Origin: Auricularia sp. M13
Taxonomy: Eukaryota; Basidiomycota; Agaricomycetes; Auriculariales; Auriculariaceae
Direction of reading: 5' to 3'
NCBI GenBank assembly: GCA_037042915.1
Contig: CM073199.1
Coordinates: forward strand, 1,736,001-1,800,000
DNA: 64,000 nucleotides
Both the position numbers and the translations under genes were made by a program. The notes beneath the pieces were generated by a model that was not told the origin of the DNA, did no database searches, and saw only the letters and a list, made by a program, of their open reading frames with translations. Shown here piece after piece: positions 7,870-29,328 of this stretch; position 1 is the first letter of the stretch, and every line of letters begins with the position of its first letter.

Positions 7870-8010
7870 TTGATGGCTGTCTCCCCAGCTGCCTGTACCG
7901 TTTGATGGCTGTCGCTCCAGCCAGGTCCAGGTCTCAGTTGTTATTTATCGCTGTCTCCCCAGGTTCTCACTGGGCCCCCTGCTTGCGAATAATCCGATCA
8001 CTGACGCCCC
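7870..8010. repeat. First cluster of short palindromes downstream of the KDZ gene
   Basis: Four variants of one motif occur here: gctgtctccccagc, gctgtcgctccagc, gctgtctccccagg and actgacgccccagc. They follow the KDZ stop codon at 7744 by about 130 bp. They are weaker palindromes than those after 9250 but share the CTG-n6-8-CAG frame. Two more lie near 8535 and 8580. Confidence 0.6.
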
Positions 8011-8058
8011 AGCTTGAGGAAGCTTAAGAATTGCATAACTGAAGCTCCGCAACCCCTA

Positions 8059-8352
8059 ATGCCCGTCCCAACCATGTCAAGCGCTTACGACGAACGCCCG
8101 CCGTCGGGTGCTCGCTTTGCAAGCGGGAACCAAGCGGAACTATGGCTTGCTAGTCATCGTATGGTCATGTCCGACGTATCCCAGTTCCTCAAGAACGCCG
8201 AGAACACCGCCAATGTTGCTCCGGAGGATGCTGCGCTGCGTTCGGAGGTCGCCAGGCTCGCCCGGATGTGCCGCAGGCTTGAAACGGAGCTTGCCTCTCT
8301 TCGGGCTGCAGTGGCAAGCATAGTGCGCGTTCCCATACATGGCGCGCGATGA
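8059..8352 (+). CDS. Small coiled-coil protein, 97 aa, uncertain
   Basis: An ATG-started frame encodes 97 aa. The second half (roughly residues 55-90) has a regular heptad-like pattern, with EDAALRSEVARLARMCRRL followed by a similar segment, so a coiled coil is likely. No domain is recognised. It lies in the palindrome-rich stretch between the KDZ gene and the main palindrome array, so it could be an accessory gene of that element. An unannotated host gene or a chance frame is also possible. No intron is needed. Confidence 0.35.
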   Translation: MPVPTMSSAYDERPPSGARFASGNQAELWLASHRMVMSDVSQFLKNAENTANVAPEDAALRSEVARLARMCRRLETELASLRAAVASIVRVPIHGAR

Positions 8353-9249
8353 GTAACTAATAGAGTGTCGTATAGCGGGTACCAAACTTCACGAGCAACC
8401 AGACGGTTTTTGGCTTCGTCCAGAACCTGGAGACCGGCGAGGATAACGGTCAAGCCGTGCACAACGGTTGAGACAAGTGTTCATGTACAATCGCCACGTC
8501 GTGCCTTTATGTGACCTCGAACAACGTGAGACTGCCGCCCCAGCTCATTCCCGACTTTGTTGCATTGATCTGTGTCACGCTGTCGCTCCAGCTTGTTGCT
8601 CATGTGCAATCTTCGAAAACCATGCGTCGTACACAAGAATGTGATATATTGCGACTGCAGAAACTATGGGCGATCTCAGAAATCTTCCACGAGACCAAAG
8701 GCTTCGAGCGCGGCGAGGCGACCTTTTAGCGCCAAAAACTCCTGACGGCCGAGGTGTCCCGCGGTCTCGAAGTACGCAACTCTAAGCCTATTGAGGTATT
8801 CAGACGGGGATTCTGGGAGCTTGCGATCAGCATGGCAACATAGAACACGAATCGATTGGCGGACTGACCGTCGTCTTCGCGCCCATGTCGGCGAACCCAG
8901 TAGCGTCGAAAGAGGTTCCAGAGTCCCAATCTCAGCGCATGTTCGAGCCTCCTGCGAAATGCATTGCGTTCCGACGTTGTCATGCCCCGTCTGATTTCAT
9001 GGAAATAATCGTTTCCGCGCGCGGCGTACGCGCCGATCGATTCTGCAGCTATGAGTTACATGTGTTTGATAAATGGCAAGGGCGGACTGACCTCCCGGTT
9101 TCTCGTCCCCTAGGTTGTGCCAATGCAGGCGGAAGAGGCTGTAGGTGCTGCGAACGTGGACGGACATATGTGCGCGGCGTGCAAAGGCGAGAATCAAGGA
9201 CTCCAGCGGATGATATCAAGGGCCTTTAAGTAGGCAGCGCGCGCGGGAA

Positions 9250-10945: not shown

Positions 10946-10989
10946 TTGGTCCATCTTCTGATAGGCAGAGTTGCACCGTAGCGGTGCAT

Positions 10990-12122
10990 TTTGGGGCAGC
11001 CTATGGTGGATAATGGGATGCGATAAACCCTTTGGCGGGATCAATGTTATATTTCTCGGAGACCTACGCCAATTACCTCCTGTATTAGACAACAATTTAT
11101 GGCTGGAGAGTAATACACTGACCGATGCCTATACACGAACGGCTGCTCCGAAGAAGAAGGGTCAGCAGAAAGCTCACGGTCAAGGATTATGGTCGTTTGT
11201 CACTCGAGTAATCAACCTTGTTGAGAATTTCAGGCAGCGTCTGGATCCACGATATGCCGGCTTAGTACAACGCGTTGGCGACGGTGTTGCCACTGTGGAT
11301 GATGTAAATATGTTAAACAGCCGTCTTTTAAAACGTTGTAACGCGCCTTCGGTTTTCCAAGATGCCCCGTTGATCACGGCCGATAAATGCGTGCGCGACG
11401 AATGGAACATGGAAGCCACGCGTAGATACGCCGCCCGAACTGGTCAGGCGCTCCACATGTACGTGGCTCGGGATTCTATCATGGGTCAGCCGGTGAGTCC
11501 TCGACTCGCGTTAGCTTTGCGTACCGTGAGCTCCTCCATCACGAAAGACCGTCTTGGTGTTATCCCTTTGGCAGCGGGAATGAAGGTTATGGTCCTGGAT
11601 AACATTGTCACTCGATCCGGAGTAGTTAACGGCGCAGAAGGCATATTGCGAGGAGTTACTTACGAAATGAATGAACAGGGCAGCCGCGTTGCCGTCTGCG
11701 CAATGGTCGAAATCCCAGGCTGTGAGTTACAATATCCTGGTTCTGAAGCTGGTCTTGTTCCCATATTTCCTCAAAAGCGATATTTCAAGATTGGAAAACG
11801 TGGAGAAGGGGTCGTTCGCACGCAGCTGCCACTGATTCCTGCATATGCGTTCACAGATTATAAAAGTCAAGGTCGTACAATGCAGTATGCCATTTTGGAC
11901 TTACAGAGTACGGGCCGCTGCATCCAATCCACCTATGTCATGTTGTCGCGAGTCGTGAAGTTGTCAAACGTCCTTATTCTTCGTCCGTTCCCCGCGCAAC
12001 ATGTTCGACGGTCGCCAGCCTCTAGTACGCGCCGTGAGATGCAGCGCTTACAAGGGCTGAGTGCGCGCACTATGCGAGAATGGCTCGCTTCAGAAAGCTA
12101 TTGTGAATCGCTTGCGAGGTAG
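10990..12122 (+). pseudogene. Pif1-type helicase, 5'-truncated fragment
   Basis: One open frame of about 375 aa holds the C-terminal half of a Pif1/RecD-like superfamily 1 helicase. Visible are FGGINVIFLGDLRQLPPV (motif III region), LVENFRQ, the 2B-like segment KVMVLDNIVTRSGVVNGAEG, AYAFTDYKSQGRTM (motif V) and YVMLSRVVKLSNVLIL (motif VI). The Walker A motif and the start of Walker B are missing. The recognisable domain begins where the palindrome array stops, so the 5' half has been lost or replaced. In fungi such fragments are commonly pieces of Helitron transposons. No Rep/HUH domain is seen, so a host Pif1 fragment is possible. No start codon fits the domain edge. Confidence 0.75.
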
Positions 12123-12521
12123 GTTACGTGAAGAGAGAGTAGCGAGCGCTTCGGTTTAGTCCGTTCGAGTCTGGCATATAGAGAAGAGAAGATTTTTTTG
12201 GGTTTTTTGGCGTAGAGACTATCGTACAGTATGGGTACAAGGCGTAGAACGGATACAACGGGTAGGGAGAGACTATACAGGCTAGAGATACACGAGTCTT
12301 GATACAATGGGCACATGGTTCGTATTGATACGTAGGGCAAAGAAACTGGACCTCACGTTAATAGTACAGAGAGAAAGCGTTCGCCGTTTACAGAAATGCA
12401 ACTACTCGCGTACCGGCGTCTAGGCGCGCATCGTCACGCGTCGGGCACGGCGCGCAACCCACGGATCCACGTGAGCTCGTCGACTTCTTCTTCGTCTGTC
12501 ATAGCGTCAACCACCGACTCG
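12123..12521. other. Intergenic region
   Basis: No supported gene. The region contains AT-rich and purine-rich tracts after the helicase fragment, then a GC-rich stretch that may hold extra 3' coding sequence of the minus-strand F-box gene. Confidence 0.4.
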
Positions 12522-13733
12522 TCATACTGTTTGCGTATCGCACGCACCATCGTGAATATGAGGGCAACCTATGACCCGGCACGTGGGGGTCACTCGCCAT
12601 CGCAGGTCGTGCTCGAACTCGATGGGAGTGCCCTTCGACGCGTAGTCCATCGGTAGGACGCAGACGCGGTCGGTCTTGTGGATAGTCCACCAGTCAGACA
12701 TGCACTTGGTACCGAAATCACCGTAAATCGTCGTATCGAAATGCTGAATGCCGCGCCTCTCGAACTTGTTCACAGTCGCGCTGTCGACGTCGCGAAAACC
12801 GTCTTGGCTCAAGGCGTTGTAGAGTGCCGTCTATGATAAGTCAGCATTCATTCTGCACGTAGCCCAGAATGGCGTACCTTCTGGTCCGTCAAATGCGGGA
12901 ACGGGATGACGAAGAAGCGCGCGGTCAACACGACCATGCTGGCAGTTGACCAGCCGTCGAGGACGGCATGCATCGCAGTCTGCGTGGTGCTTTCGATGAC
13001 GTTGATGCGGCGGCCGTTGAGCTTGAGGCAGACGACGGACTGCGTGTCCACGCGTTGCGCGAGGCGCGTACACGGGCCGTATGTCGGAACCTCGTCGAAC
13101 GGAATGATAATGCCGCCCCAGCTGACGATAAGATCTACGAATACCTGAGCCGTATTAGACGTAAGGAAATATTATCCAGTTCAGAACACGCACTTTGCCC
13201 ACGCCGCGAGGCGTAAAGAAGTCGAGATTGTCCGTGAGGTGCTTGAGTAGCTGTACGGCGTCGAGGGCCTCGCCTCCAGCGATGACGGACTGGGTGAGGT
13301 CCATGTGCTGCTGGATCTTCTTCGCGCGGTCCATGTTGCCGAAGTAGCGAACAAGCAGGTGAAGAAAGCGAGACGTGAGTTCCATGGGCACCATCCGGCT
13401 CAGGCTCTTGCAGACGGCGCGGATGGCGGCCAGGTCCGCGAAGGTCAGCTTGCAGAGGACGTCGAGCCAGACGTCGTCAGAGATGGACCCATTGTTGCCA
13501 CTGTGAAGACGTGAGTCAGACGGTGTCGCGAGCGCGAGACTGGTATAGGAGACGTACATGAATGATCCAAACCGTAACAAGCGCGCAGTCTCCGATCCGA
13601 CGTCGACGGAAGAGCGGAGGCCGGGGCTAGTGTCCACTGTTAGCGGCCGGAATGATGCGAGTACCGAAGAAGCTCACGACGATAAAACCAGTTGTCCTTG
13701 CTTCGCGGCGTTGCTGGTGGACGTCGACATCTT
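12522..13733 (-). CDS. F-box protein with degenerate nucleotidyltransferase-like domain
   Basis: Minus-strand gene with about five exons starting at ATG 13733. Residues ~46-90 form an F-box (ISDDVWLDVLCKLTFADLAA, then CKSLSRMV), the part that would bind Skp1 in an SCF ubiquitin ligase. Next comes a region with the layout of a polymerase-beta-type nucleotidyltransferase: VIAGGEALDAVQLL, then NLDFFTP, then RRINVIES. The following segments, WSTASMVVLTARFFVIPFP and VNKFERRGIQHFD, match the same order in the gene at 16755-17819 (FHSTLVMNVFTPTHIIIMFP, IDKYERRGFSFYS), so the two are related. Asn stands at two positions where the neighbour has Asp, so catalysis is unlikely. The 3' end is uncertain; an extra intron after ACDTQT could extend it. 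Confidence 0.7.
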
Positions 13734-14492
13734 GGACTGAGACATGGGTCGGACGTGATGGTACGGGGAATACCTCAAGGAGCAAGAGAGGGTCTCCTTG
13801 CTCGGGGTTTTATCACCCAATCTGGGAAGCCCGTGCGGATGCATGTCCGAGACCCAAGGCTTGCTAGACAGCCATCTATTAAGCTCCTTATTGTTCCGCT
13901 CGACCTCGCAGGCCTCCAGTATGGCTGCGGTACTTGCATGTGGACGAGGATTCGTTGACTTGCTTCTCGTGTGTGCTTCGGTCCACATTTTGTGTAATTT
14001 AAGCACTGTTTACTTTGCTATCATGCATCCGGAGGTATTTTTGCACACTCAATGACGATAGGTTATCGATGTGCTACGGCCATGTTACTTCTAACATTTT
14101 GCTCGCTCCGTGTCCGCAAATTTGAGGCGTCTTTAATTCTTGGCGACAGAAACGTCGAGCATTTGCTGGCACATTCTGCGAGCATGGCGTGCTGCTTGCA
14201 TGTTTATGACATCATCGCGCCAACCCGCCGGACTACACCGCCACAAGAAACTGTTTGCCGTGACCGCGATGAGCGTCAACCATTCTGCGCCCATGTACAA
14301 AGCGCGAGATGCGTACCACGTACTGCGTATGGTCCTTGTAGTCTTGACTTGTCCCCAGCCGCTCTTGAGATGCGTTTGCTCTATGAATAGTGGGCGAAAC
14401 TCCGCATAGAGGTTAATGGACAGGTCCGAGCCTGGTCTAGCCGCATCACTGCATGCTAAATTGCGAGTGCGTGCGTTCCTTGCTACGTTAAG
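13734..14492. other. Intergenic region between divergent genes
   Basis: No convincing gene on either strand. Short frames lack domains and clear splice signals. It separates the minus-strand F-box gene from the plus-strand gene at 14493 and so should contain both promoters. Confidence 0.4.
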
Positions 14493-15127
14493 ATGCCCCT
14501 CTTACCATCCCCCACCGCACCGCAGACCACGCGCGCGTTCGGAGAGCCCGAGCCCTTGGGACGACCGCCATCGCCTCCACCGTATGAACAGCATCACGAT
14601 TCCGCTCATAATGCGGGCCGGCTCAATATGATACGCCAAGTTTCCAACGTACGTTGCTTACCATTGATTGAAATTGGCTAACATTCGTGCAGAATCCGGA
14701 TTGTACTTTGATTGTTCGCCGCAATATGGACGCGATTTTCGTTCCCGTCAACGGAACTCCTCAACCTGTCACAGTCGCGGTCGACTTTGTGGTCACGTCT
14801 TCCCCGCCGTACGTGCGTGTCTTGGAGGAGCATGTATCGCCCGTGCTCCGTGGACCGTTTCTTCATACAGACATCATGCTTGAGCACGGCGGAACTTCGT
14901 TTGGAATTCGGGCCTTTCGTGCTGCCGGTTCGACTTTGCCTGTCAACCGCTGCATCCACCATGAAGGACAGCCTGCCGGAGCGTGGCGTGGCGACGTGCT
15001 GGTGATGGGACGTGGATACGATTTCTTCTTCGTCAACTTGAACATACGCTTGGCCTCTCTTATAATCTGTGCGCTCGCAGACTCTGGGGATCGTAGTGTA
15101 GCTCCGACTATGACCGTTCAGATGTAA
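14493..15127 (+). CDS. Unknown 196-aa protein with GDVLV motif
   Basis: Two exons (14493-14648, 14693-15127) join in phase 0 to 196 aa. The first 50 residues are Pro-rich and probably disordered. The rest is a compact alpha/beta-looking domain with PVTVAVDFVV, a short LPVN motif and AWRGDVLVMGRG near the end. The LPVN plus W-x-GDVLV pair recurs in the gene at 17996-18529, so the two belong to one loose family. A GDLVLV element also ends the five tandem paralogues nearby, but that similarity is too short to prove kinship. Function is unknown. The last 25 residues may instead be an unrecognised intron. Confidence 0.6.
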
Positions 15128-15383
15128 ACAAATTATTGGCGCCTTCTGCTATATGTACAGAACAACACGAATTTGATCTCCGGATGCCTCCGAATCTTCA
15201 CGTGGCCAAGATCGCAAACGACTAAGGACCGATAACGGCGTATGCCCATTTTGCTGGTCAATATTGGCTCAATGTTCGAAGATCATAGAGCATGCGTTTT
15301 TTTCCCATCCTCGACACCAGCGTGTAGACACGCGACGAGTTTGCGGTGATCCATCTGCATGTCGTGACGACTGCACATCGGCA

Positions 15384-15419
15384 GAGCCTCCCAGGACTAT
15401 TGAGCCTCCCAGGACTATC
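15384..15419. repeat. 18-bp tandem duplication
   Basis: The string gagcctcccaggactatt is present twice in direct succession (one base change at the end) in the gap between two genes. It is small and probably neutral. Confidence 0.8.
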
Positions 15420-15525
15420 TAACGGTCGTCGCGCGCTCTATGCTAGTGGCTTGGTCGCTTAGAGTTGCTGCCGGCCTTGGTTGCCTTTCACCATCCGCAT
15501 CTCGCTCGTTCAACCCCCGCGAACC

Positions 15526-16502
15526 ATGGACATAGGTCGCGTCCCAATACGATACAGCGTCCTCGACATCTATACTATGCTGCGGACGCGCATGACCAAC
15601 TCGAGCTTCATGGCGTTTCCTCCAAGGCGTCCTTTGGCGTGGTCGTCGTTCAACGACACCGTGCCGGAGGCCGACGAATCGCAGCCAGTGCAATATGTGA
15701 AGAACAACCCGGGCTTGAACGAGTACGCACATTACAACAAGGACATTTCGATTATATCTGAGCTCTTTACTGTCTGATCTAGCCGCATCCATTACATCCA
15801 TAATATCGCGGACGACGACACTCTCACCTTCACGCCTGCCTCGCTGCCAGCCGCTGTCACGCTCCGTTTCATCGAGCATCCTTATGGAGGCGATCCTCAA
15901 GTCAGCGTATTATGTGCTTCGACCCCGCGCGCTGTGTCTCGCCAACCGGTTACGCTCTGGATCTTCGGGCGCATTGTTCACTGCAGATACGTCCTTGACG
16001 CGAACGGTGCCCCGGAAAAGTGGATAGTTTGCATGCAGGCCATCGACCCTAATCTTCACCGGCTTGCGCTGGCGTTGCAGCTGCAATTCGGAGGGGTCCA
16101 AGATAGTATGTCGTCTAACCGGTACGTTCTGCACCTACTAACAGACTTGCAGTTATGCTCCCAGACCCGCTTCCACCTTTATTCCTCTTCGCGCCGCGCA
16201 TGGTATACAATAACGGTTCGACGGTGCATGACCGTTGCAGCCGTGCACGTCGCTGCACTGTATTGACTCTTGATCAGTCTCTCCTCACCAACTGTTGGGA
16301 CGCCTTCGCCGGCGTCACTTTTCCTCGCAGCAACATGCCTTCTATTCCACCGGATAATCTAGCTATGGATGACCTTGTGCTCGCAGAAGTTTGGATGGGC
16401 CGGCAGGTCGTTGTTAACAATCCGGAACGCGAGAAGTGTCACTTTCACGTTCGATCTGTCTGTGTCTTTGCGCGCGCTGGATCATACGAGCTCAATACTT
16501 GA
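15526..16502 (+). CDS. PITIW/GDLVLVE family member 1, 271 aa
   Basis: Four exons (15526-15722, 15783-16105, 16153-16223, 16278-16502) join in frame to 271 aa. Family landmarks in order are FMAFPPRRPLAW, VKNNPGLN, RIHYIH, QPVTLWIFGRIV, VTFPRSNM, DDLVLAEVW and FHVRSVCVF. The first intron follows the LN dipeptide in phase 2, as in all five copies. Exons 3 and 4 are 71 and 225 nt, exactly as in the member at 22854. The family is not one I recognise. No signal peptide or membrane segment is seen, so the product is probably cytosolic or nuclear. It is the most diverged copy at the GDLVLVE motif and stands apart from the others, with the nucleotidyltransferase gene next to it. Confidence 0.75.
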
Positions 16503-16754
16503 TCGTGTCTTCCTCATCTCCTAATTGCAGTCCTTTTTTTTCGCCCTTAACATGACACGTCTGCCTGACGATCTATGCGTGACACTTGGGCGTGTCTGTG
16601 GCTGGACCGCGAGGAGTGTTCTACAAGGTTCAACGTCCGCCGTATAAGAGCTGCCGTCGCTCCGCCCGTCCCGTCGCCTTCTTGCCAACCTGAACTCCCC
16701 TTCCTCCCGAGACATTCGACCGTTCTATCTGGCCCACTCTCGACCTACTCCGCC

Positions 16755-17819
16755 ATGTTTCAGTTTCGCCCTCGGTGGAATCCTATCTACACGCATATCA
16801 CGCACATGACCGCCAACCTGCGTCCAATGCCCCAACGCGATCCGAACTTCGACTTCTCCGGGTGAGTCCAGTTTATGCTTCGAGTTCCAAGTCTCCACTT
16901 ATAGATGATCTCGCCGCGTGCAGTACGACCAACCGCGAGCTCATTTTGGACATCTGCGCCGCTCGGGCGTTGACTACCGAGGTGTCCGACAGGCTGGCGG
17001 CAATGATCAACGAGCTACTCGTGCGCGCTTGCGAGAAGCTTCTTCGATTCTTCCCGTACCCGCCTGCCATTCTCGATGCACTCCGTGCCGCGAATGCCGC
17101 CATTACCGGGTCCTGGCTGGTGGCGTTCCTCCTCGACCCCGTCGAGTGGATTCCAAAGGATCTGGACATCGTCACGTGTGGCGGCGATGCAGCTACTGTA
17201 ATGCGGTCTGCAACGTCTCCATTTCCCTGCTGACAGACCGGTTTAGATTGTCGAGCAAGCTCTCAACGTTGCCGGTTACGTGCAAATCAACGAGTTCGGG
17301 CCCGCGCGCTACGACCACAACCCCTTGCGATATCTCGAGCGCGTGTCCTCGTGGTATAATCATCAGCTCAAGGCTCACGTCGACGTCTTGCTTAGCATCA
17401 CCAAACACGCTCTCGATCCCGTCCGCGGCTTCCATTCGACGCTCGTGATGAACGTCTTCACACCTACACATATCATCATCATGTTCCCGGACACGACGTT
17501 TGCGTTCGAGGCGTACACGCAGGCTGACACTCCGCAGCATATCATCGACAAGTACGAGCGCCGTGGTTTCTCGTTCTACAGCACCAATGCCGCCTTCACC
17601 GAGCCATGCCGGGCGGCGTGCCCGTCCTTGATCAGAAACACCGGTCAGCCCAAGACGTGCCTCTCTGTCCCGCTGGATACTCGATATGCCCTTCTCCCTC
17701 CCACATTCGTCCCTCCGTACAAATCTTGGTTCGCGCCCTTTCCGTGCACGAATATTTACTGTATTCGCAATGAATTCGTATGTACCAATCCGGTTTTCGC
17801 GCTCAGACCTCGACGATAA
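16755..17819 (+). CDS. Predicted nucleotidyltransferase-fold protein, 317 aa
   Basis: Three exons (16755-16861, 16924-17197, 17247-17819) join to 317 aa. The core shows the three marks of a polymerase-beta-type nucleotidyltransferase: a GS dipeptide (ITGSWLVAFLL), the DxD pair in KDLDIVTCGG, and a third acid on a later strand in AHVDVLLSI. After this come FHSTLVMNVFTPTHIIIMFP and IDKYERRGFSFYS, which are shared with the F-box protein at 12522-13733. Such proteins transfer nucleotides to RNA, protein or small molecules; the substrate here cannot be told. All three acidic positions are present, so it may be active, unlike its F-box relative. This family is common in agaricomycetes but has no established role that I know of. 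Confidence 0.65.
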
Positions 17820-17995
17820 CCTTTCTTCTAGTGCAAGATGGGTGGATTGGAGTAGCGTTGCCGGCGAGCCTCTTTGACTTTGGACTTGGCTGTTATAGTT
17901 CGTTTGTACCGTCCTTAGCGTAATGCGACTTGGTCTCCCCCCCTCTCAACTTGCTCTCCGCGTTGTCCTCTCTGAAAATTACCTTCCCCGTCGAC

Positions 17996-18529
17996 ATGGA
18001 TGACGACCGTGTCAATGACATTGACCGAGAGATCACTCGTCGCTCGCCTGTACGTGACGTTCGCCGTCGCTGTCCCGCTCGCTCACTTCGAACCAAGCCG
18101 TATCCCGCCCGTTATCGCGCATTCTTTGCGGGCGCAGCTTGTACCAAGGCTCACGCCGTCTCCGTCGCGGTAGATTTCGATGTCAAGGGTCGTATCACTG
18201 TGCACGACCTCCTCGTTCATCACTGGATGACGCCTACCACGTCGCACGACCGCGACCGTGTTTCACGTGGTACCTGGTCCCGCAACACCTACGCGCCCGT
18301 GCTCGACGGCAACTGCGATGACACCTGCACACACGCCTTCACCGTCTTCACTCAGCCTCAGTCAAACGACTTGCCCGTAAACGCCGTGTTATCTTCCAAG
18401 TCGGCGGGAAAATGCAACTGGAAAGGCGACGTACTCGTCCTCAAGCACCATGACCGCGACGCTACATCCGGATTCACGCATATGTGCAACTCTGACTACG
18501 AGCTCGTGTATAGTCTTCTCGTGACGTGA
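17996..18529 (+). CDS. Unknown 177-aa protein with W-K-GDVLV motif
   Basis: A single open frame from ATG 17996 gives 177 aa. The N-terminal 40 residues are charged and Arg-rich. Later come VSVAVDFDVKG, LPVNAVL and NWKGDVLVLKHHD, then SDYELVYSLL at the end. The order VAVDF, LPVN, W-x-GDVLV is the same as in the gene at 14493-15127. An ending with W-[KR]-G-[DN]-V-[LV]-V followed by an acidic helix is common in uncharacterised agaricomycete proteins. No enzyme motif is visible and the function is unknown. The true start could lie upstream in the same frame at a weaker position. Confidence 0.6.
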   Translation: MDDDRVNDIDREITRRSPVRDVRRRCPARSLRTKPYPARYRAFFAGAACTKAHAVSVAVDFDVKGRITVHDLLVHHWMTPTTSHDRDRVSRGTWSRNTYAPVLDGNCDDTCTHAFTVFTQPQSNDLPVNAVLSSKSAGKCNWKGDVLVLKHHDRDATSGFTHMCNSDYELVYSLLVT

Positions 18530-18719
18530 GTGCGTCGCTCGGTCATGGATTGGTATTTACTTCTTCCAGGGTTTTGCAGTGACTTGCGCCAGTGTTCTGA
18601 CCCAGCGTCGCGCGCCATGTAGATCATAACTCGTCGCATAAGGCTGTAACAATACTCGTACACGAACGCTTGACGTACTGAATACACAACGTCATGAGTA
18701 CAAAAAGCGCGGCTCGAAC

Positions 18720-20053
18720 TCACACATCCTCCATGTCCTCATCCTCTTCTCCACCAAGCTGCTCGTTCTGCTCGTCCGGCAATTCGACGCTAGGCACCTG
18801 TTGACCGTGGCCAGTCGCAGCCGGCCCGTCATGAGTGAACTGTTGAGCGTGGGATATGTCCGCGACGGCCGTGAGATCTTCCTCGTGCTGCTGAAACTTC
18901 GAGGCAGATGGCTCGAGAGATTGGGACGCGGACGCCTCGCCGTTCAGAAGCTGCTGGGTCTGAGCAGCAGCCTCGTCATAGAAGCTGGAGTGCTTCCTGT
19001 ATGGAGCCGGTCGCTTCATGATCTTCATAGAGGTGATAGCCTCGCGACGTCCCTATCAGATGGATTACTAAACAGAACATCAATGGAACGAAATGCGTAC
19101 CTTCCTCTGCCCTTCAGTGCTGATAAGCAGAACGCGCTCTGGTCGGAATTGCACTCTGATATAGCCGTTCTTGCTGACCACAACCTCCACGAAGGCGGTA
19201 ACGTCCACGAAATGTCCCGGTGCAAAGACGATGTGGGTGGCGTGCTTGACTTGACCGCTGCGCGTCAGTTCAGCGAATTCCATCTTGTCTTGGAGGTGCC
19301 ACGCGTGCTGAATCGCACGGAGTTGAGGCCCACGGAGCGCCGCATCCGAAGGGATATTGAATTCGGAGTCGGTGCCAGCCTGAAATACGTGAATGGAGGA
19401 ACATACTCCATGGCCATTACCCACCTTGACAAAGACCCTGCGCTGCATATACACGTTGCCGCCTTCTTCTGCATCGAACACGGCCTTCGGTTCTTGATCA
19501 GGCTTGATCATCTTGACTACGACCGCAGCGAGACGGTTAAGGGCGCGCAGCGTTGCGGTCCATTCTCTGCCGTAACCGCCTCCAGACAGCACAAGGGATT
19601 GAACTGCCTTCACGGCGCCGTGCTCCTTTCTGCGAACATCCATTAGTGTTCTCCAGTGGTAGAACGTACGCAGCCGTGCTTACCCATCCCAATTACCCAA
19701 AGATCCCAAATTGAAACGTTCGAGGAAACCGGTAAACCGGACGCCGAGTTCGTACAGTTCCACGCCGTCCTCCATGCCGTCTTCCACGTCTGGAACGTGG
19801 GTGACGATATAGGGCCGAGAACGGTCAGAAGACTGAGGGTTGGGAACAATTTGCAACCATTCGGAGAGCTCGACGTCGTTACATGGCACCGCCTGCCAAA
19901 ACTCGCAGCTGCCATAGTCTTCCGGGTCCTTCTCGACGCGCTTGAAGTGATTTGACCATAGGTTTCGAACGAGGTCGTTTGTGAGATCATCTGGCAATAA
20001 ATTAGACAAGACCAAATGCAGGGAAGAGGACACTCACCGACGAGGAAAGCCAT
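18720..20053 (-). CDS. Unknown 394-aa basidiomycete protein
   Basis: Four exons on the minus strand (20053-20038, 19990-19684, 19629-19101, 19052-18720) give 394 aa with consistent phases. The first 110 residues are acidic with aromatic residues. The middle third has beta-strand-like stretches (NVYMQRRVFVKVGNGHGV, HFVDVTAFVEVVVSKNGYI, RVQFRPERVLLIS). The tail is basic (MKIMKRPAPYRKHSS), then Gln-rich, then strongly acidic (GEEDEDMEDV at the C-terminus), which suggests a nuclear protein. I recognise no domain. The first exon holds only MAFLV and one base, which is unusual but fits a clean GT-AG intron. It points away from the tandem family that begins at 20870. Confidence 0.65.
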
Positions 20054-20820
20054 TGTGGATACTTCCAGACTTGTGGCGTTACGCGGCGCGGCAGCTTTTA
20101 TGCGGGCGCGAAGGCACCTTAATCGAAGGCTCGACGCTAGGACTCATTCTGCGTGCCTGGAAGCTGGGGATGGTGCAAAGCTGACGCACGGCCGCGGCTA
20201 AACCCGACGGTCTCTCTCCGGCTACCGACTCGCTCTTCTGCTTTATTACATCTCTTGCTCGCGTATGCATATATGCAACCGTTCTTCGTGCCCGTGTAAA
20301 CGTGCTCCTACACGCGTGGGCTGCTATTCGAGCCTTGTAGGGGCATTTTGCTCGTAGACTGTCTGGATCTGAAATTTCTACCGTGTTCCACGACCTTCCA
20401 GCAAAAGAAAAATGGCGTGCTCGTAGTTGTGGCGTTCCCCTCACACGCCAGGAACATCTCAACCTTCTGGACCCATCTCACACATTCCACGGTCTTCCAG
20501 CGACAAGGAATCGTGTGACAGACGTCATCGACGAATCGTAGTTGCTGCAGCGTCCTCACTCTCTCTGATTGCTTCGAGATTGAAATACACGGCTATGATA
20601 CCGGCATTCTGCACAACGTCGCACATTTTTTCACAGACCATATCGCTGCGAGGGCTCTAACAAAAGCTGGTTTCTCTGTGTTGGCTGTTGGGACACATGC
20701 CGGCTCCAGACCTGATGTCCAGCTTTGGCGAAAATGGCGAATCGATTCGTGCTCGGTGGCCCTTCAAACGCTTCTTGAGAGGAATAGTCTCGAATTTTCT
20801 GGAAGTACGCCTTCCCACAG
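20054..20820. other. Intergenic region
   Basis: No supported gene. It separates divergent genes (ATG 20053 minus, ATG 20870 plus) and should hold both promoters. Confidence 0.4.
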
Positions 20821-20828
20821 TATAAAAG
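20821..20828 (+). promoter_or_regulatory. TATA box of the gene at 20870
   Basis: tataaaag lies 49 bp upstream of the ATG. A similar tatataa lies 41 bp upstream of the next paralogue at 22854. Confidence 0.6.
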
Positions 20829-20869
20829 CGTATATTTTCCGTTCTCATCCTCGCTGTCCGACTTTCAGA

Positions 20870-22516
20870 ATGGGCAAACGCGGCAGGGCGACATCTACGA
20901 CAGCCGGTGCAGCCAAGAAATATTTGTCAGTACTTTGTTACCGCGACCGGTGATACTGTCTCTAATTCTTGCACTTAGAAAGCGCAATTCTGAAACCCGA
21001 CCACGCTCTTTGTTCATTGACGAGTGAGATTTCTGTTGAAGTCGCTTCACGGACTACGCTTATTCCTGTGCAGCGAAGCCGAGGAGGCCGCCGAATCCGA
21101 GGACGAAGGCGCTGAAGAGGGCGAAGAAGACGACGGCGCTCTCTCGGATCATTCAACATTTTCCATGCTTACAAGGACTCAGGTCTGTTTTAATCAAGCC
21201 CGCGTAAATCGAATTGGAGCAACTGATTGTCTGCAAGCCCACTGTCAAGGACAACGAAGTCGATAAGGAACATTCTCTCGCCGATGCGGTCAGTGTTATG
21301 AGTTTGACCCGGGCTCTGAGTAACAGTACTAATTGGCTGCAGAGCACCGCAACCGCAGGGCCTTCGAATGCCGAAGGTTCTGAGGCGACTGGAGACAGTG
21401 CTGAAGTGGACAAGGACCTTAACCCCGACCCGCTCTTGGGTCCGGATACGGTGACCGTGAATACGGGAGTCGATTCTGCGGTCGCCGACGTCGATCCCAG
21501 CAGCAAGCTTAAACCCGCGCCCGTCGCAAAGGTTAGTATCTGATTTCATGATATCGAGTCTGCCAAGAATTGACCCCTAGCGTAGCCCGAACCGAAGTCG
21601 TCGCCCGACGTTGTCACGAAATCTTCGCCCGATGCTGGTACCAAATGGGTGCCAGGACGGCCCCGACTAAACGGGTGCGATCTCATTCGATGAGTTCCAA
21701 TGCATGGCTGAGTTTTCTTAGCCGCATTGACCGCATGCACGACTTTGCCAACGATGCTGAATTGACCTACTCTGTGCTCCGAGTGCCGGCGGATGCACGC
21801 ATTGTGACTTGCGACGACGCCGCTCGTGACCGTGTTCATGTGCTCGGGCGTCCCCTTGCCAACCGCCCTCAGACCATGGCTCCAATTACGATATGGCTTG
21901 TTGGTCGTCTATCCCGCGTATATCTGCGGGATGGATCAGGCAACCTCCCTAAGAGCGTCTCGGTCAACGTTCGCCTCCTCAGCTCCCGCGCTTTTCATGC
22001 AGCCACGACACTTCTCCGTCGCTTCTCCACGGATACTGCCGGTGAGCTCTTCCCCTCACGTACATATGGTACTGTCTCATCGTTCCCCAGGTGTTGAACA
22101 GTATGACGACGTCAGGGCTTCTCGTTGGATGAACGTGCGCACTCCCGGAGAAATAATGGACAGGGTACGACTTTGGCTTTCAACTGCACCTTTCCACTGA
22201 TCAGCATTACCAGACTGACAGCTTCGACGCTATATGGGATGCTCGAAAGTCCTTGAAGTCGCCGCGTGACAAGATGGAGCCTGTCTTCGCCACCAACGTC
22301 AAGAAAGGCGATTTGGTTCTCGTCGAAACTACGCTGGCCAGGTATCGTGTCAGCGACAAATCTGCGGCCTCGGAGACTACGTCACCCAATAAGTCACGGA
22401 AGCGTCGTGATAACTGGGCCGCCTACTTTTCCTTGAAGTCCATTTGCATCTTGGACGACACCGAGGTACAGGAAGATCCCAGCTCCATTGTTCCCGTCCA
22501 GACCTGGGAGCTGTGA
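20870..22516 (+). CDS. PITIW/GDLVLVE family member 2 with acidic N-terminal extension, 417 aa
   Basis: Nine exons (20870-20925, 20979-21023, 21074-21182, 21220-21288, 21343-21531, 21586-21674, 21722-22041, 22091-22164, 22214-22516) give 417 aa with matching phases. Residues 1-150 replace the AFPP region of its siblings. That part starts basic (MGKRGRATS), turns strongly acidic (EEAAESEDEGAEEGEEDD) and then low-complexity. The family core follows: TKWVPGRPRLN, the phase-2 intron, RIDRMH, APITIWLVGRLS, DARKSLKSPRDKM, KKGDLVLVETTL and YFSLKSICIL. The extension looks nuclear or chromatin-like, but this is inference. A separate acidic gene fused by mis-annotation is possible; against it, the exon ending TKWVPGRPRLN belongs to the family and is in phase with both sides. 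Confidence 0.65.
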
Positions 22517-22812
22517 TCATTCGGTAACGTTTATCCTTCCCTTCCGCCTTCCCTTCCGAATACTTAGTACCTGACTCTTCCGCTCCGTCTGTATCGATTG
22601 TATACTTTTGCTGACTGTATTTTTGCTCCTCGGATTTCATCTGCCGTACCGTATATGCTCCAGCCTATCCTCTATACGCCTTCTATCGTGTATTATTAGT
22701 ACCCCCGGCCAAATCCAACTCGTTTGGTACGCCTATTTTTCCGGGAGTCGACGAGCACGCAATGACGAAGTTCTGTTTAGACGATGTCCCGCAAGGTTGC
22801 GCGCAAGCCACA

Positions 22813-22819
22813 TATATAA
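22813..22819 (+). promoter_or_regulatory. TATA box of the gene at 22854
   Basis: tatataa lies about 35-41 bp upstream of the start codon, a compact promoter like that of the preceding paralogue. Confidence 0.55.
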
Positions 22820-22853
22820 GTCCTTGCTCCCGTTTCTGAGCTAGTTTAAGCTC

Positions 22854-23844
22854 ATGCCTGAGGACGTGCGCCGCCTCGAACCTTCCTGCAGCGTCCTTGA
22901 CCCCCTCCACGTCTTCAACGTCCCATTGCTCTCCAGAGCGTGTTTTATAGCTTTTCCACCTACACGACAGCTCGCGTGGGATAGCATGAGCACTATACTG
23001 CCCGAAGCACTTGAACCTCGGGCTTACAAATGGTTCGAGAATAACCCCGAGCTCAACAGGTTTGTGTCGCTCGCCTTTGTATACGGCATGACTCTCACAG
23101 TTGACAGGCGTATCCATTTCATGCATCGCCAGTCGGACGCGACCTCGCTGACCTACTCGATGACTTGCATCCCATCGAGCGTCTCCTTGATGCCCATGCG
23201 CTTCCAGAACGACGAGGACTGGAGGATCAGCGTACTATCCTACCCTATGACTGGCTCGCGCATGCAGGCGCCTGTTACGCTCTGGCTTGTCGGTTGTATC
23301 ACTCGCGTTCATCTTCACGAAGACCGTGCCGGCGTGCCCCCAAAACGGTTCTTTGTTCACGTCAAGCCTCTCGACAAGCGCGCTCTCGAGGTTGCCTGCG
23401 GTTTAGAGCTCAACTACAACGGTCGCGTAACGTTCGGTGAGTGTTGCCTCCGCCATCCACGCTATGTGCGTCGATCTGTGCGCAGCTGAAAACGCTTGAA
23501 GATCGCACGCCTTTGGAACTACCCGACGTCATGGTTAATCGTACCTACGCTCCGCCTGTGGACGGCCAAGAGGTCCGTGAATCACGTACGACGCTGTCGC
23601 ATGATTAACATATCCGTAGTCTCTTGAGAATCGTATCTACGACGGAACTAAGGGCCTCGCGACTCCTCGCAATACCATGACTTCGCTTCCGCTCAGTCAC
23701 CTGAAAGAAGGAGACCTCGTCCTTGTAGAGACTTGGCTGACTTGCTTTACTAAGCTCGACCAACCGGGCCTGGAGGAAGCGTACTATAACCTTCGTGCGT
23801 TGTGTCTTCTGGCCGATGGCTCTGATTTGGTTGCTGTACCCTGA
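22854..23844 (+). CDS. PITIW/GDLVLVE family member 3, 276 aa
   Basis: Four exons (22854-23059, 23108-23436, 23502-23572, 23620-23844) give 276 aa. It is the clearest copy of the family: CFIAFPPTRQLAWDS, YKWFENNPELN, phase-2 intron, RIHFMH, APVTLWLVGCITRVHL, FFVHVKPLDKRALEVA, GLATPRNTM, KEGDLVLVETWL and NLRALCLL. Exon sizes 329, 71 and 225 nt recur exactly in siblings (329 at 24160; 71 and 225 at 15526), which shows descent by whole-gene tandem duplication. The fold and role are unknown. No transmembrane or signal segment is seen. The 3' neighbour in the family starts about 315 bp downstream. Confidence 0.75.
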
Positions 23845-24159
23845 ATCGTAGATGCTCCTCATTTGTTCTCCTGTATGCCGTGTACGTACGACGCTGTCCA
23901 TAGTAATTGTGTACTCGCAGACAGCAGTGGTCACTATCTCGCGCATGAGCGAATTTATACATTACTTCACGTCATCGGTACTGGAAAAGAAAAAAAACAC
24001 GCGTCGAGGGGCCGTCTTGAAGTCCATGGAACCTAAATCCGATACCGGGATTTACCGGTGTGAACGTTCCAGAACATTCTAGCTTTTTCTGCTCGTTACG
24101 CGAATTAAAGCTGATTCCATGCGTCTCAGCCGTTATTCCCCACTCTGATCCCTCCATTC

Positions 24160-25126
24160 ATGTCAATCGCCGTTTCCACGTCCGTCATTGATGCGGTTTC
24201 GCTACAACTGGATCCCTTGCCCACCGCTGTGACACTGGCATATCCGCCGTCGACTTCAAAGGCTCGAGCGGTGGTCACGGAGCTCTTTCCTGACGCAGAG
24301 GAGCCGGAAAAGGTGGAATGGGTGTCCAACAGCGAGCTAAACGCGTAAGATAGCCATCTCCGCGACCGCTCTTGCTCATTTTAAATTGCCAGGCGTCTTC
24401 AACGCATGCACGTTTTTTCAGATTACGATACAAACACTTTTTCTGTTGCCAACATTCCGTGCAGTGGTCAATTTACTGCTGTACGATCTCCTGGTCACGC
24501 GCGCACGCGAGTTCTCGGGTATCCCCGGAGGATCTCGTCCACGTCGGCCGCTATACCCATGCCCATCACCATATGGCTAATTGGAAGAGTTGCGGACGTC
24601 GTGATGGACGCATCTGACGTGCAAGCGGCGTCGAATATCGACCTCTCTCTCGATATTTTGGACGATACGTCGCATTGTGTTGCGCGAGCATTGTTGCATC
24701 GCTACAGCAATGGACTCATCGGTGAGATACTTTTATATTTCCAACATATGGTTCTGAACAATGTCAAGAAACCCTTCCGCGCGGCCGCATCCCTATCTCG
24801 TTCCAACCAGAGCGATTATTCGGGCAGACTGTAAAGTCTAATCGGGTGCGTTATGAAGCCTGCTTTATATTTTATTGATAACTGACTGTGATTTACAGGT
24901 CAAATTTTGTGATGCCCGCGTCAGATTGTCGTCTCCAAGGGGAGAAATGCCATTGGCAAACGTTGAGAAAGGCGATCTGGTGCTAGTCGAGGTCGACTTT
25001 GTGCTGTACGCTCCATCGTTATACGACGGCGCCAGCGGTGCCACCACAACCTGGCTCCCAATATTTCATATGAAATCTGTCTGCTTGTTGGAAGCTAGGT
25101 CTCCAGACGCGGACGGTCAATCATAA
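24160..25126 (+). CDS. PITIW/GDLVLVE family member 4, 272 aa
   Basis: Four exons (24160-24344, 24393-24721, 24769-24845, 24899-25126) give 272 aa. Motifs are LAYPPSTSKA, VEWVSNSELN, the phase-2 intron, RLQRMH, MPITIWLIGRVADVV, CDARVRLSSPRGEM, EKGDLVLVEVDF and FHMKSVCLL. Exon 2 is 329 nt, the same as in the copy at 22854. The sequence between motifs is poorly conserved, so the family diverges quickly while keeping its open frame. That pattern fits selection to vary, though relaxed constraint cannot be excluded. Confidence 0.75.
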
Positions 25127-25204
25127 CCATGTATTTCCCGCTGAGACTCGCGATTGTTATAACTCCACATCTGCATTGACTAAACAACATGACTCAAAAC
25201 TTTC

Positions 25205-26476
25205 ATGCAACGTATTGACATCAATTGGGTAGCCGCAATGTCCTCTGGTAACTTGCACGATGCTGTTCAGCCGACGTACTCGGTTAGGGTTTCGGTGCCG
25301 AGAGGATCGTTTCCGTATATTAACCTCTGTGGTCCCATCCAAACCTTCTCGTCGTCCCTCGGTATCCCCATGTCCTTCGAGCTCTCTGGTCCCCCAACTC
25401 CTCCGCCACTCGGCACCAGCCCTTACGTCCTGTACCCTATTCAGTCCCCCGCGATAGTGTGGTAAGCATTTCCTCGCGCCACACCTTCGAAGACACCATC
25501 TAATCTTTCTTACAGTACTGGCAGGCGTACAAGAATGTGATCCACGCGTTCTGGACGTGGGAGGACTTTGCACGCTTCCTACACTCAGATACTCTCTTCT
25601 CCGAGGCGCGGCTTGGCGGCCTCGTGGGCTTATTTCAAGTCCTCGACAACCACCTGGCCTATCTCAGCAGCTATCAAATTACGATCTCGCTTTCCGACAT
25701 GTGTAACGCGGAGCAGACTGCAACAGGTCGTGCACTCTACGGCGCCGTCATTGCCAGGTTCGTCACTGCGTTTGCTACCTTACTAGGCCCGATCTTATAT
25801 GTCTGCATAGATCATATCTGCACCTCGAAGCGTACAGTGCTCTCGCCAGGCTTCTACAAAGTCGTTGCGAGGCCCGGTCCGAGTCAGACACTTCGTGTAC
25901 CGCGATGGGAAAGCTCGACGAGCTTCGACTGCAGTTGCCGTGCCCACTATCTACTTACAATGTCGGCGCTGTTGCATTGACGTCCTACTTTATCTTCTCC
26001 CTAGGCGTGATTTCAGTGCTGCGAGTCCTCCATTCGGAGACGGGGAACAATTGTTTCTCGGTCTGGCACCACATTCTCGCCGACTACGCCTCTATCGCCC
26101 AGATCCACATGGCCAGCTTGCACGAAGTTGATACGTCTGCCACGGACCTTCTTGCTGCAGCCTTCAAGGTCGAAGAAAGCTGCACGTTGGGTACGCTTCA
26201 TATTCTGCATGCTCTTTCGACCCAATTAATCACGTCAAACATGCAGGCCTCGTACCGCGCGGCATGCGTCCTCAAGTCAAGGCGCACATGCAGGAGCTCT
26301 ACCGTAGTCTGTCAACTAGTAGCGTGTAACTGTTATATCATTCGCCAGCGTTCGTCGTATCCCCAATATCAAACTCCGCCAGTTCTCGCTTGTTCTGGAA
26401 TCTTCGCGATGGCCTTCCTGTCCTAAAAGACCTTGTCATGCGCGACGGCGTCCCGACATCTTGTTCCTCCCCATGA
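25205..26476 (+). CDS. Unknown multi-exon gene, structure uncertain
   Basis: Several exon-like blocks read in order: an 80-residue Pro-rich start (from ATG 25205), a block with VIHAFWTWEDFARFL and LFQVLDNHLAYLSSYQ, a block with EAYSALARLLQSRCEA and a hydrophobic FIFSLGVISVLRVL, a block with GMRPQVKAHMQELYRSL, and an end reading NLRDGLPVLKDLVMRDGV. The later junctions have good GT-AG introns, but I could not join the first exon to the second in phase. It does not carry the PITIW motif and is not a family member, although it lies inside the array. It may be partly decayed. Confidence 0.4.
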
Positions 26477-27021
26477 CCACCAAGGCGCTGAGTTCATTCC
26501 CTGGTCCTCCGATTTACGGGCACGTACTCGACACTGCTCAACCGGACACGGACGCGGACGCTCGTACCGAACCGGTCTCCATGTTGCATCGTTTTCTGGC
26601 CAACCTGACCTTTAAGACTGTCGTATGTGCTGTCTGTTCGTCTTTATTACATCCCTCGTCTGGTACCACTCGTATACTGACCGCCGACCAACTTCGACTA
26701 TTACGACCCGTCCACCCCTATCTACGTCCTTACCATATACGTATGACCGCGTCGCCTATTGCGACGCTCTGCTCGATAAACGCGGATTTATATCGTCGAC
26801 CGCGCGCTATGCATGTATGTCTCCCTTGCTTGCGCTGCCTGGCCCGTTCGGAAACCCCGCCACTGTCCCTTGCGAACGGAAATTATACGGGTAACGATTG
26901 CGTGCTTATGACCAAATTGTGACGCGTGTAATGTGCTAGACGGGCATGTCAATTAACCTCTTGGAGGCTCGTCGTGCGCTCGCAATTAACTCCGCTTCCC
27001 GGCTTTCTTTCCCACCCGTGC
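26477..27021. other. No supported gene
   Basis: Open stretches here include FDYYDPSTPIYVLTIY, reminiscent of loop regions of agaricomycete multi-pass membrane proteins, but frames are interrupted and no gene model holds. Possibly the remnant of such a gene. Confidence 0.3.
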
Positions 27022-27885
27022 ATGAACCACTATCTCTTGCTCGACCTCGAATATCTGGTGCCACGCGCTCCCCGCGAGATGCTTTCTGCCGCGTTTCCTC
27101 CTTCGTCTCAACGCGGAGCGACTATCATCAATGCTCTGATGACCGAAGTCTCGGAGCCAGTGGCAACAACGTGGATCCGTGACAACGACCAGCTGAACGA
27201 GTACGTGCCTCCGCACCCTTTCACAATCCTCCCTTGACAATTAGTCTAGTCGGGTCAATCGCATGATCCACTTTTCCGACCGAGAGTCGCGCACATATTA
27301 CATGTCGTCCCTGCCGGCGATGATCCGATGGATGGATCTCACCCATCGCGAGCGCCGTGTCATGGTCCTTTCACTCGCTAAGCAAGTCGGTCGCAACGTC
27401 GTTCGTCTGCCCGTCACCATATGGGCCGTGGGCGTCGTCCGCAATTTTACCCGCCAACTCGGCAACGTCAATTCCGTCTCGTCCGTGACCATCCAACCCT
27501 TGGACCAACGTGCCGCTGGTATTGCACACGGCTTGGGCGCACGCTTTGTGCATACGCGGCCGGCCACTCCAGTTCCACTCACGCTCTCTGCAACTACCGA
27601 TGGCGCCTATGAAATCGTGCGTGCAGTGATCTTTGAAATAATGGATAGCCGTTGATGACCTCGTTCTAGTGCACGGATCCTACTCAAGTCGGCAAGGTCT
27701 ACGACGCGCGCGCCTCATTGCAGACCCCGCGGTCTTCGATGAACGTCGTACCGCTGCAGGAAGGCAGCCTTGTACTGTTGGAGATGTATTTCGTCCGCAT
27801 TCAGCCGGGCTGGAATCAGAGCTTCACGAGCAATCTGGCTCTCAAGGATGTATGTGTACTTCATGATGGACCGTTTACGACTTGA
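27022..27885 (+). CDS. PITIW/GDLVLVE family member 5, 253 aa
   Basis: Three exons (27022-27200, 27250-27616, 27670-27885) give 253 aa. Motifs are LSAAFPPSSQ, TTWIRDNDQLN, the phase-2 intron, VNRMIHF, LPVTIWAVGVVRNF, YDARASLQTPRSSM, QEGSLVLLEMYF and LALKDVCVL. It has one intron fewer than most siblings: the second intron is missing and the coding stretch it would split is shortened, so intron loss is likely. The ATG at 27022 was chosen because the family's AFPP motif follows about 40 residues later, as in the other copies. Function unknown. Confidence 0.75.
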
Positions 27886-28258
27886 CGTTGTCTTTCATTT
27901 CGATTCCACCTACTGTAGTTTCCCGTGATACTCTGTGTTAGCGTTATGAAGCTCTTTCTTTATCATTACATTCATCCGTTCTTGGACTACATACGGCTTC
28001 AGGTCTCCGCGGAACAAACGCGGATGTACCAGGTTATTCGGGTTCGAGTTCTTTTCTAAAAACAATCTTTTTCCGTTCATCGCAACGAACGAGGTGTTTC
28101 AGGACTTACAACGAAAACTCACAAGGAATGCCATTTTGGGAAGGCCCGGGCCCAGATCGGGGGCAGCTTTGTTTGGTCGTTGTTTGTCGCGACTGAACCT
28201 CGTCCGTTCACGTTCCACACCGCGCGCAACACCCGCCGTCCCTCCGCCCTCTTCGAAC
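27886..28258. other. Intergenic region
   Basis: No gene seen. This marks the switch from the lineage-specific island to conserved housekeeping genes and should contain the UBE2S promoter. Confidence 0.4.
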
Positions 28259-29328
28259 ATGGTGCGTCCTAGTAGACATGTGCGCGACATGCTGCCATTG
28301 CTGACGCCGGTGCCGACAGTATATCAACCCGACCGTGCAGCGGCGCCTCATGCGCGAGATCGCCCAGCTCAAGTCCGACCCGCCCGAGGGCATTCGCGTC
28401 GTCACCGACGAGGAGAACGTGTTGAATCTCGTCGGGATTATTGCTGGCCCGGGTATGCGCGTTTCCTATTGCTGGGATTTTGCGCGTGACAGTTCTGACT
28501 GTCACGCTCTGCTGCAGAAAACACGCCGTACGAGGGCGGGTACTTCAGGGTCAAGTTCAGCTTCACCGACGAGTTCCCCACGGCGCCGCCCAAATGTGCG
28601 TCTGCATGCCGCGTGTCCCGGTGCATAGAAATCTGACCGTGCAACCGTGGTGGTCTCACAACGGGCAGGCTGGTTCTCGACCAAGATATTCCACCCGAAC
28701 GTGTCCAAGAGCGGCGAAATCTGCGTCAACACGCTCAAGAAGGACTGGAAGCCGACCTTCGGGCTCGCACACATTCTCGTGACAATCAAGTGTCTGCTGA
28801 TCTACCCGAACCCGGAGAGCGCGCTCGACGACGAGGCCGGCAAGCTGCTGCTGGAGAACTACGACGACTATTGCAGCCGCGCGCGCATCATCACCCAGGT
28901 GCACGCAACGCCCAAGGTGCGCAGACCCCCCTATCCGTGTGCGGTCATGTGACCGGGCAGAAAAGCTGAGCCTCTCCACGTGATAGACCCGTCCTCCGGA
29001 ATTCGACGAGCCGCGGAAAGACGCTCAGGCTCCCGCGCCCGAGGCGACCGCTTCGGCGTCCTCGTCCTCGTCTGCTGCAACAGCATCGCGCCTGTCGCCC
29101 GCGCCATCTGATCTATCGCCGGAGGTTGCGTCCATTCTCGCGGCCATAACGGGCACCGAGAATGTCGGCACGCCGACCCCGCGCAGCGTCTCGTCCTCCA
29201 CCAACCCGCTGCAGCCGTCTAACGCCAGCCAACCGGCTGCGGAGGCGCCTGTGAAGCAGACATCGGGCGTGAAGCGCCCCGCGACGAGCGCCATCGACAA
29301 GCGGAAGAAGGCGCTCAAACGCCTGTGA
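28259..29328 (+). CDS. UBE2S: Ubiquitin-conjugating enzyme E2 S
   Basis: Five exons (28259-28261, 28320-28452, 28518-28595, 28669-28916, 28987-29328) give 267 aa. The UBC fold shows [47 protein letters not shown] with the catalytic Cys, and [20 protein letters not shown] long Ser/Ala/Pro-rich tail ends in KKALKRL, matching the Lys-rich, Leu-Arg-Arg-Leu-type end by which animal UBE2S docks on the anaphase-promoting complex. UBE2S extends K11-linked ubiquitin chains on APC/C substrates in mitosis. The first exon seems to be the start codon alone: the ATG is followed at once by a 58-bp intron, and the protein then reads [11 protein letters not shown]. An alternative without that intron would add 20 unrelated residues. 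Confidence 0.93.

Follow-up and report, generated by a model that had tools for sequence, protein, structure and literature searches.

A diverged five-gene array in Auricularia sp. M13 lies within a giant Helitron that it probably serves

Helitrons are rolling-circle DNA transposons with a RepHel gene, which combines an HUH initiator with a Pif1-type helicase. In the basidiomycete Pleurotus ostreatus, HELPO1 Helitrons carry RepHel and one to four downstream cap genes without assigned function, have T[C/G] and CTRR ends, and reach 13.7 kb in the largest case, which includes a Gypsy insertion; capB adjoins RepHel in most other basidiomycetes where it is found (Castanera et al. 2014, PMC4289320). 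The Helitron2 elements of Fusarium oxysporum (FoHeli), about 5–11 kb long, have asymmetric terminal inverted repeats, the published mark of Helitron2, and in FoHeli1 and 2 both ends carry a hairpin and the start is TC; an additional open reading frame (ORF) without known domain is mentioned, and we found no RPA-like genes in the available text (PMC5148889). Maize Helitrons are also long, up to 39 kb, but carry captured gene fragments, and a review calls full-length host gene capture by Helitrons exceptionally rare (PMC6431247). Here we describe a 64,000-nucleotide stretch of the Auricularia sp. M13 genome (GenBank assembly GCA_037042915.1, contig CM073199.1, positions 1,736,001 to 1,800,000; hereafter the window), in which five unnamed paralogous genes, A, B, C, D and E, all on the plus strand, lie within a diverged copy of a giant Helitron.

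Like HELPO1, the Auricularia element is a basidiomycete Helitron with RepHel and downstream genes without assigned function, but it differs in its length (24.2–24.3 kb in the three recent copies), its roughly 12 cargo genes, its five-paralog array and its asymmetric inverted repeats; the cap genes were compared by description. It resembles FoHeli in having asymmetric inverted repeats. The RPA-like genes of plant Helitrons, in a study arguing that single-strand-binding proteins were acquired independently three times or more (PMC4683698), are a comparable case of an additional, diverged family of genes that Helitrons have retained, whereas the array family has five paralogs and no detectable RPA homology. 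Helentrons with AP endonuclease, OTU or VTD domains likewise encode accessory proteins (PMC6431247, PMC9741609). In contrast, the three Auricularia RepHel pieces scanned gave no Pfam match to an AP endonuclease, two further N-terminal pieces lying outside the scan, and none to OTU. A literature search at the level of titles and abstract openings, with most subscription papers and all bioRxiv preprints outside its range, found no description of a multi-gene Helitron of this kind or of the array gene family.

The genome searched comprises 52.1 Mb in 14 contigs. A 23.6 kb stretch of C5 gave a 99% alignment to each of two stretches on C6, and comparison of the copies, by which the element ends were set, yielded three copies (C5, C6a and C6b; Table 1) that are 99.5–99.8% identical by substitutions and have exact common ends. 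C6a is nested in inverted orientation 150 bp inside C6b, which is therefore in two parts, and the uninterrupted form of the insertion point is seen in the C5 copy. ATTC flanks both sides of the C5 insertion and of both C6 insertions, and is either a 4 bp duplication or part of one end. Because the copies end at the same bases, all three insertions lie in ATTC and the nested one has its unoccupied form in C5, they arose by transposition, and segmental duplication is ruled out. An apparent 156 bp terminal inverted repeat in C6 is in fact one copy's 5' end, severed by the other copy. The window has the same order as the C5 and C6 copies, with 66–71% DNA identity across parts of 11026–23293, and protein-level matches extend the colinearity to gene E at 27825.

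Pieces of the large gene in C6b match Helitron_like_N (8.9e-32), DUF6570 (5.9e-17) and PIF1 (1.1e-17) in Pfam and include, by eye, the motif HCHMFIW, which we take to be tied to HUH nucleases. The C6b gene therefore has both the initiator and the helicase of a RepHel; in the window copy the helicase end is present, and the N-terminal part lies upstream of the window. At its 5' terminus the element starts with (AT)TCCTGAAGCCGTTAAGG and forms a hairpin of -8.3 kcal/mol, as good as which none of 200 shuffles was. The terminal inverted repeats are asymmetric, with CTGAAGCCGTTAA at the 5' end and TTAACGGCTTCAG about 35 bp in from the 3' terminus, and the 3' repeat is followed by a hairpin, CCGCG...CGCGG, in the C5, C6, window and C2 copies. 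C2 has the inverted-repeat core and the hairpin, with different last bases. The window 3' terminus is 88–91% identical over 47–50 bp to the C5 and C6 ends. The element ends in ...CAGATTATTC and so lacks the canonical CTRR 3' end of Helitron1; it has the asymmetric repeats and the hairpins at both ends that characterise Helitron2, the 3' hairpin being the weaker. Judged by sequence, the copies and their ends establish the array-bearing unit as a giant Helitron, a rolling-circle DNA transposon with Helitron2-like ends.

The array genes were spliced by hand (Table 1). An earlier note, written from the window sequence, had described a five-member tandem array. The five homologues are real, and at least seven further genes stand among or before them in the same unit (the F-box gene, X1, Y, X2, Z, V and a RepHel-N-like gene). 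All five models have a phase-2 intron directly after LN, as the note had it, and the exon lengths it listed recur (71 and 225 nt in A and C, 329 in C and D). Splicing yields a full open frame for four of the five; the frame of B is open across the domain, and its acidic, low-complexity 5' exons, from about 20870, have uncertain models, so the claim of five open genes stands in part. P-[VI]-T-[LI]-W and PR-x2-M occur in all five proteins, and so does LN, with the preceding W/Y 5–6 residues away and not always 5. The other motifs had been drawn too tightly: AFPP, reported for four, is exact in three (D has AYPP, B lacks it); R-x3-MH, reported for all, is exact in three (A has IH, E has M-IH); GDLVLVE is likewise exact in three (A has DDLVLAE, E has GSLVLLE), and the final [LM]-K-S-[IV]-C in two. 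The alignment of A to E has 23 invariant columns, with 22–31% identity to A. A pattern search gave 5 forward and 5 reverse matches, against 2 forward and 0 reverse for a backward-read control. Homology goes beyond chance: in the stretches of C2, C5 and C6b where gene order predicts each gene, to which the search was confined, all 30 expected matches of exon 2 and the last exon were found, none with an internal stop. The family is indeed without a name. None of the five proteins reached the Pfam cut-off, so that no match to a known family, which the earlier note had named as counter-evidence, emerged; profiles of 5 or of 13 family members had no sequence match in the PDB, and protein B alone gave no confirmed relatives in viral_contigs.

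A tree of 23 rows, built from exon 2 and the last exon, resolved five groups by gene, each with the window, C2, C5 and C6b (support 98/94, 99/99, 87/91, 100/99 and 100/99; C5 and C6b are near-copies). The gene labels require 4 changes on it, the minimum possible, and none of 200 shuffles was as low. Sequence orthology of all five genes across the four copies shows that the array is older than the copies themselves. Between the window and C2, the nonsynonymous proportion (pN) is 0.11–0.32 and the synonymous proportion (pS) 0.72–0.78, which is saturated, so the ratio is known only as low; gene A rows for C6b and C5 were excluded, the exon 2 match there being paralog C. Gene B is slowest, with 90% (exon 2) and 79% (exon 4) identity between the window and C2 despite saturated synonymous sites. 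By these comparisons the array genes have been under purifying selection over long times, since nonsynonymous change is far below saturated synonymous change. The rapid change that the earlier note had attributed to selection, as in recognition, conflict or mating genes, has another source: these are cargo genes of a Helitron with constrained proteins, and their apparently fast evolution reflects the age of the element copies compared.

The array family also keeps company with RepHel elsewhere in the genome. Paralog searches with C and B, whose counts are lower bounds, placed the family at at least 16 places (counted at E up to 1, one match per place; C3:457k rests on E 0.1), 11 of which have a same-strand RepHel 14–48 kb upstream, where about 0.3 of 16 would be expected by chance (our own arithmetic; the copies are not independent). 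The 51 genomic matches to Helitron_like_N reduce to 43 places after merging 8 same-locus pieces, and 32 of these have no family member within 50 kb downstream. The 11 cargo-linked RepHel places match the C6b RepHel piece best (365–1775 bits); the best cargo-free place scores 232 bits at 33% identity, and short helicase matches of such places reach 43%. To judge by these scores, the cargo accompanies a single group of RepHel genes. Gene Y lies within 10 kb of a family place at all 11 of its places (match used per place), 10 of which also have RepHel; two further matches, on C1 and C10, are 11–14 kb off. Gene Z lies between RepHel and the family place at 10 of 10. In the matches found, the companion genes Y and Z occur solely beside the array family.

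The three distant loci read, over about 3.3–3.7 kb each, have one family gene; in two of these loci its third exon gives it a B-like look. The tree joins these genes weakly to B and D (65/47), and B as the ancestral type is therefore a guess. X1 has 8 matches, confined to the window, C5, C6a, C6b and C2 copies and a relic region near C7:2297k. In that region, C7:2287900–2298020, RepHel is present as short fragments (82 and 95% identity), as is X1 (65 and 68%); they are relics of another copy. C10:1801854–1844383 holds a RepHel with 98% identity over 431 residues and, 32 kb downstream, a 99% identical 1.7 kb array piece; by its sequence this is a recent but broken-up copy.

We consider the array genes to be Helitron cargo that serves the element, with a probability of about 85% that excludes the mechanism. 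The copies themselves show a mobile unit that has RepHel and a constant set of genes; that the five genes serve it is what we infer. Several observations weigh against this reading. Between recent copies, the synonymous to nonsynonymous counts for A–E are 8:8 for C6b–C5 (ratio 0.32), 7:12 for C6a–C5 (0.55) and 1:5 for C6a–C6b (1.59), and gene C alone has 1:6 between C6b and C5, so that short-range constraint on A–E appears weak or absent. RepHel has 15:10, 16:12 and 1:2 in the same comparisons; codons with several changes were scored nonsynonymous, and exon limits are approximate. The substitutions among C5, C6a and C6b are few and support no sign of selection for change. Five of the 16 family places (C9:1985k, C10:165k, C11:3007k, C2:1449k and C3:457k) lack a RepHel in the 50 kb upstream, and a RepHel is also missing at one gene Y place, on C3. 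Finally, the 3' hairpin is modestly better than shuffles, 13 of 200 being as good for C5 and 7 of 200 for the window.

Most likely, A–E are not host mating or recognition genes of the fungus. Genes that are nameless, diverged and in tandem would suit a fast-evolving host cluster for recognition, conflict or mating, next to which a Helitron merely landed. However, the whole cluster lies between RepHel and the element 3' end, inside copies with common end points, and orthologous arrays, five groups in the tree, stand on four contigs, with the window, C2 and C5/C6b at saturated synonymous divergence. The proteins are constrained, not diversified. We therefore reject this explanation as very improbable. 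None of the five proteins had a Pfam match up to E 1 to a homeodomain, pheromone receptor, HET or NLR, the domain names that we assume for mating-type or fungal recognition genes. Passive capture is harder to dismiss, although we think it quite unlikely: Helitrons are known to take up genes, the genes could hitch-hike and contribute nothing to transposition, which may also be true of the Pleurotus cap genes, the function of A–E rests on inference, and constraint is weak in the recent copies (5 nonsynonymous to 1 synonymous change between C6a and C6b). Yet the matched exons have stayed open in the window, C2, C5 and C6b despite saturated synonymous sites between the window and the others, gene order is conserved among copies, the family occurs outside RepHel neighbourhoods at five places only, and distant relatives of RepHel (best matches 38–48% identical) likewise retain Y, Z and one or more family members nearby. 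The cargo proteins might instead defend the element against the host, for example in silencing or ubiquitin pathways, and not bind transposition intermediates. An F-box cargo gene adjoins the array, and TET/JBP is found in other fungal Helitrons and deubiquitinases in animal ones (PMC12730594, PMC9741609), but no A–E protein matched an enzyme or anti-silencing protein above the Pfam cut-off, and we regard a defence role as doubtful.

Cargo that serves the element could act as follows. RepHel would nick the element and peel off a 24 kb single strand, which A–E, small beta-rich and perhaps OB-fold (oligonucleotide/oligosaccharide-binding) proteins, would coat or guide; B may be the ancestral copy, and A, C, D and E would, at a guess, be specialised partners. 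That A–E bind single-stranded DNA during rolling-circle transposition is a tentative proposal, at somewhat less than even odds. The surroundings of P-V-T-I-W-x-V-G and G-D-L-V-L-V-E look like OB-barrel strands, and three of the seven sub-threshold Pfam families found weakly among 13 members are OB families. RPA relatives are carried by plant, fish and cnidarian Helitrons (PMC6431247, PMC4683698), so a single-strand-binding role would be of a known kind, although not by detectable descent. Against this function stand the other four weak families, which are not OB, the lack of a PDB match to either profile, and hhalign probabilities for the family profile of 0.6% (host RPA70 DBD-A) and 0.2% (DBD-B), where 7 controls gave 0.1–0.3% and DBD-A against DBD-B gave 54%. 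The one fold model, of gene B exon 2 from five sequences, is also poor: its predicted local distance difference test score is 51.8, and at this low confidence it has four strands and a helix, an OB fold being a five-stranded barrel. RPA homology is unsupported: none of the families hit weakly in Pfam by the 13 members is an RPA family, the hhalign probabilities stay below 1%, and REPA_OB_2 has no match in the elements; across the genome REPA_OB_2 matched a gene on C4 and a weak site on C7. The latter (C7:2005324–2005518; 0.0115, below cut-off) is in an open frame of 297 aa outside the described elements. The best PDB match of the host RPA70 piece is 4gnx, presumably from Ustilago, which like the short introns and the KDZ transposon fits a basidiomycete host.

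Three recent 24 kb copies, nearly identical to one another, hold about a dozen genes in kept order, and five cargo genes have kept their frames over times in which synonymous sites became saturated. What large rolling-circle transposons need beyond RepHel thus becomes a testable question, and one set of unannotated, diverged fungal gene clusters is explained as mobile-element cargo. A bolder possibility, which we consider rather unlikely, is a distinct, autonomous-replicon-like class of giant Helitron in this fungus with a co-inherited kit of RPA-unrelated single-strand-binding paralogs, a nucleotidyltransferase-like Y, Z and an F-box protein. If true, rolling-circle transposons would have evolved a private machinery for single-strand DNA independently once more, and such a dedicated kit would explain how elements of this length move intact.

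The Helitron copy in the window is, on its letters, diverged and damaged and ends at 28039, with the array itself open. Its RepHel is in two parts, query residues 6–682 matching C7:1720064–1722088, upstream of the window, and query residues 680–769 matching C7:1747004–1747273 (window 11004 onward). The 24.9 kb stretch that separates them reads as an insertion. With its RepHel split, this copy would probably be unable to move by itself.

Table 1 Element copies (contig coordinates) and features of the window (window coordinates)
Feature	Position	Strand	Remarks
C5 copy	C5:3451880–3476107		
C6a copy	C6:1102605–1126827		
C6b copy	C6:1102455–1102604 and 1126828–1150933		two parts
Right part of ~24.9 kb insertion	1–11003		insertion C7:1722089–1747003; splits RepHel of the element
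KDZ transposase in insertion	4444–4950		Pfam 4.9e-31
~160 bp tandem repeats in insertion	near 9850–10250		self-matches
RepHel C-terminal helicase part	11004–12119	+	75–78% protein identity to C6 copy; PIF1 1.2e-5, just under curated cut-off
Cargo gene(s) with F-box	12525–13673	-	F-box 7.4e-5, above curated cut-off
Cargo gene X1	14493–15127	+	5' exon by eye; 72% identity in C5 and C6b, 70% in C2
Array gene A	15526–16502	+	4 exons, 197/323/71/225
Cargo gene Y	16757–17819	+	approximate limits; 20 genomic matches, 11 places
Cargo gene X2	17996–18529	+	weak similarity to X1, BLASTP E 2e-4
Cargo gene Z	18720–20053	-	approximate limits; 15 genomic matches, 10 places
Array gene B, domain part	21586–22516	+	4 exons, 89/320/74/312
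Array gene C	22854–23844	+	4 exons, 206/329/71/225
Array gene D	24160–25126	+	4 exons, 185/329/77/228
Cargo gene V	25493–26195	+	homology span only
RepHel-N-like gene	26611–26904	+	homology span only; separate gene, 33% identity, E 4e-7, to RepHel N-terminal piece R1
Array gene E	27022–27885	+	3 exons, 179/367/216
Helitron 3' terminus	27994–28039	+	inverted-repeat core CGGCTTCAGG, hairpin CCGCG...CGCGG, last bases ...GTTATTC

The F-box cargo is colinear with the C6 copy, with 57–72% protein identity in the best minus-strand pieces. R1 is the N-terminal RepHel piece directly before the DUF6570-matching stretch. By eye, gene Y contains GSWLVAFLL...DLDIV, which we assume to be a nucleotidyltransferase pattern and which suggests a nucleotidyltransferase-like fold; the Y piece 17247–17816, which excludes this pattern, matched no Pfam family above cut-off. 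The three repeats at C9:1984980–1986374, C10:164963–166356 and C11:3006338–3008508 are 96–98% identical over about 1.4 kb and carry the 3' part of a family gene, the C11 repeat with an insertion of about 750 bp. RepHel-free within 50 kb, they are possibly small non-autonomous elements. Downstream of the KDZ transposase, an ORF at 7529–7741 contains NSYDCGVFCA, by eye like an Ulp1-type protease, and has no Pfam match up to E 0.001. By our reading, a ubiquitin-conjugating enzyme gene at 28259–29328 (UQ_con 2.3e-19 for 28677–28949) starts about 220 bp past the Helitron 3' end.

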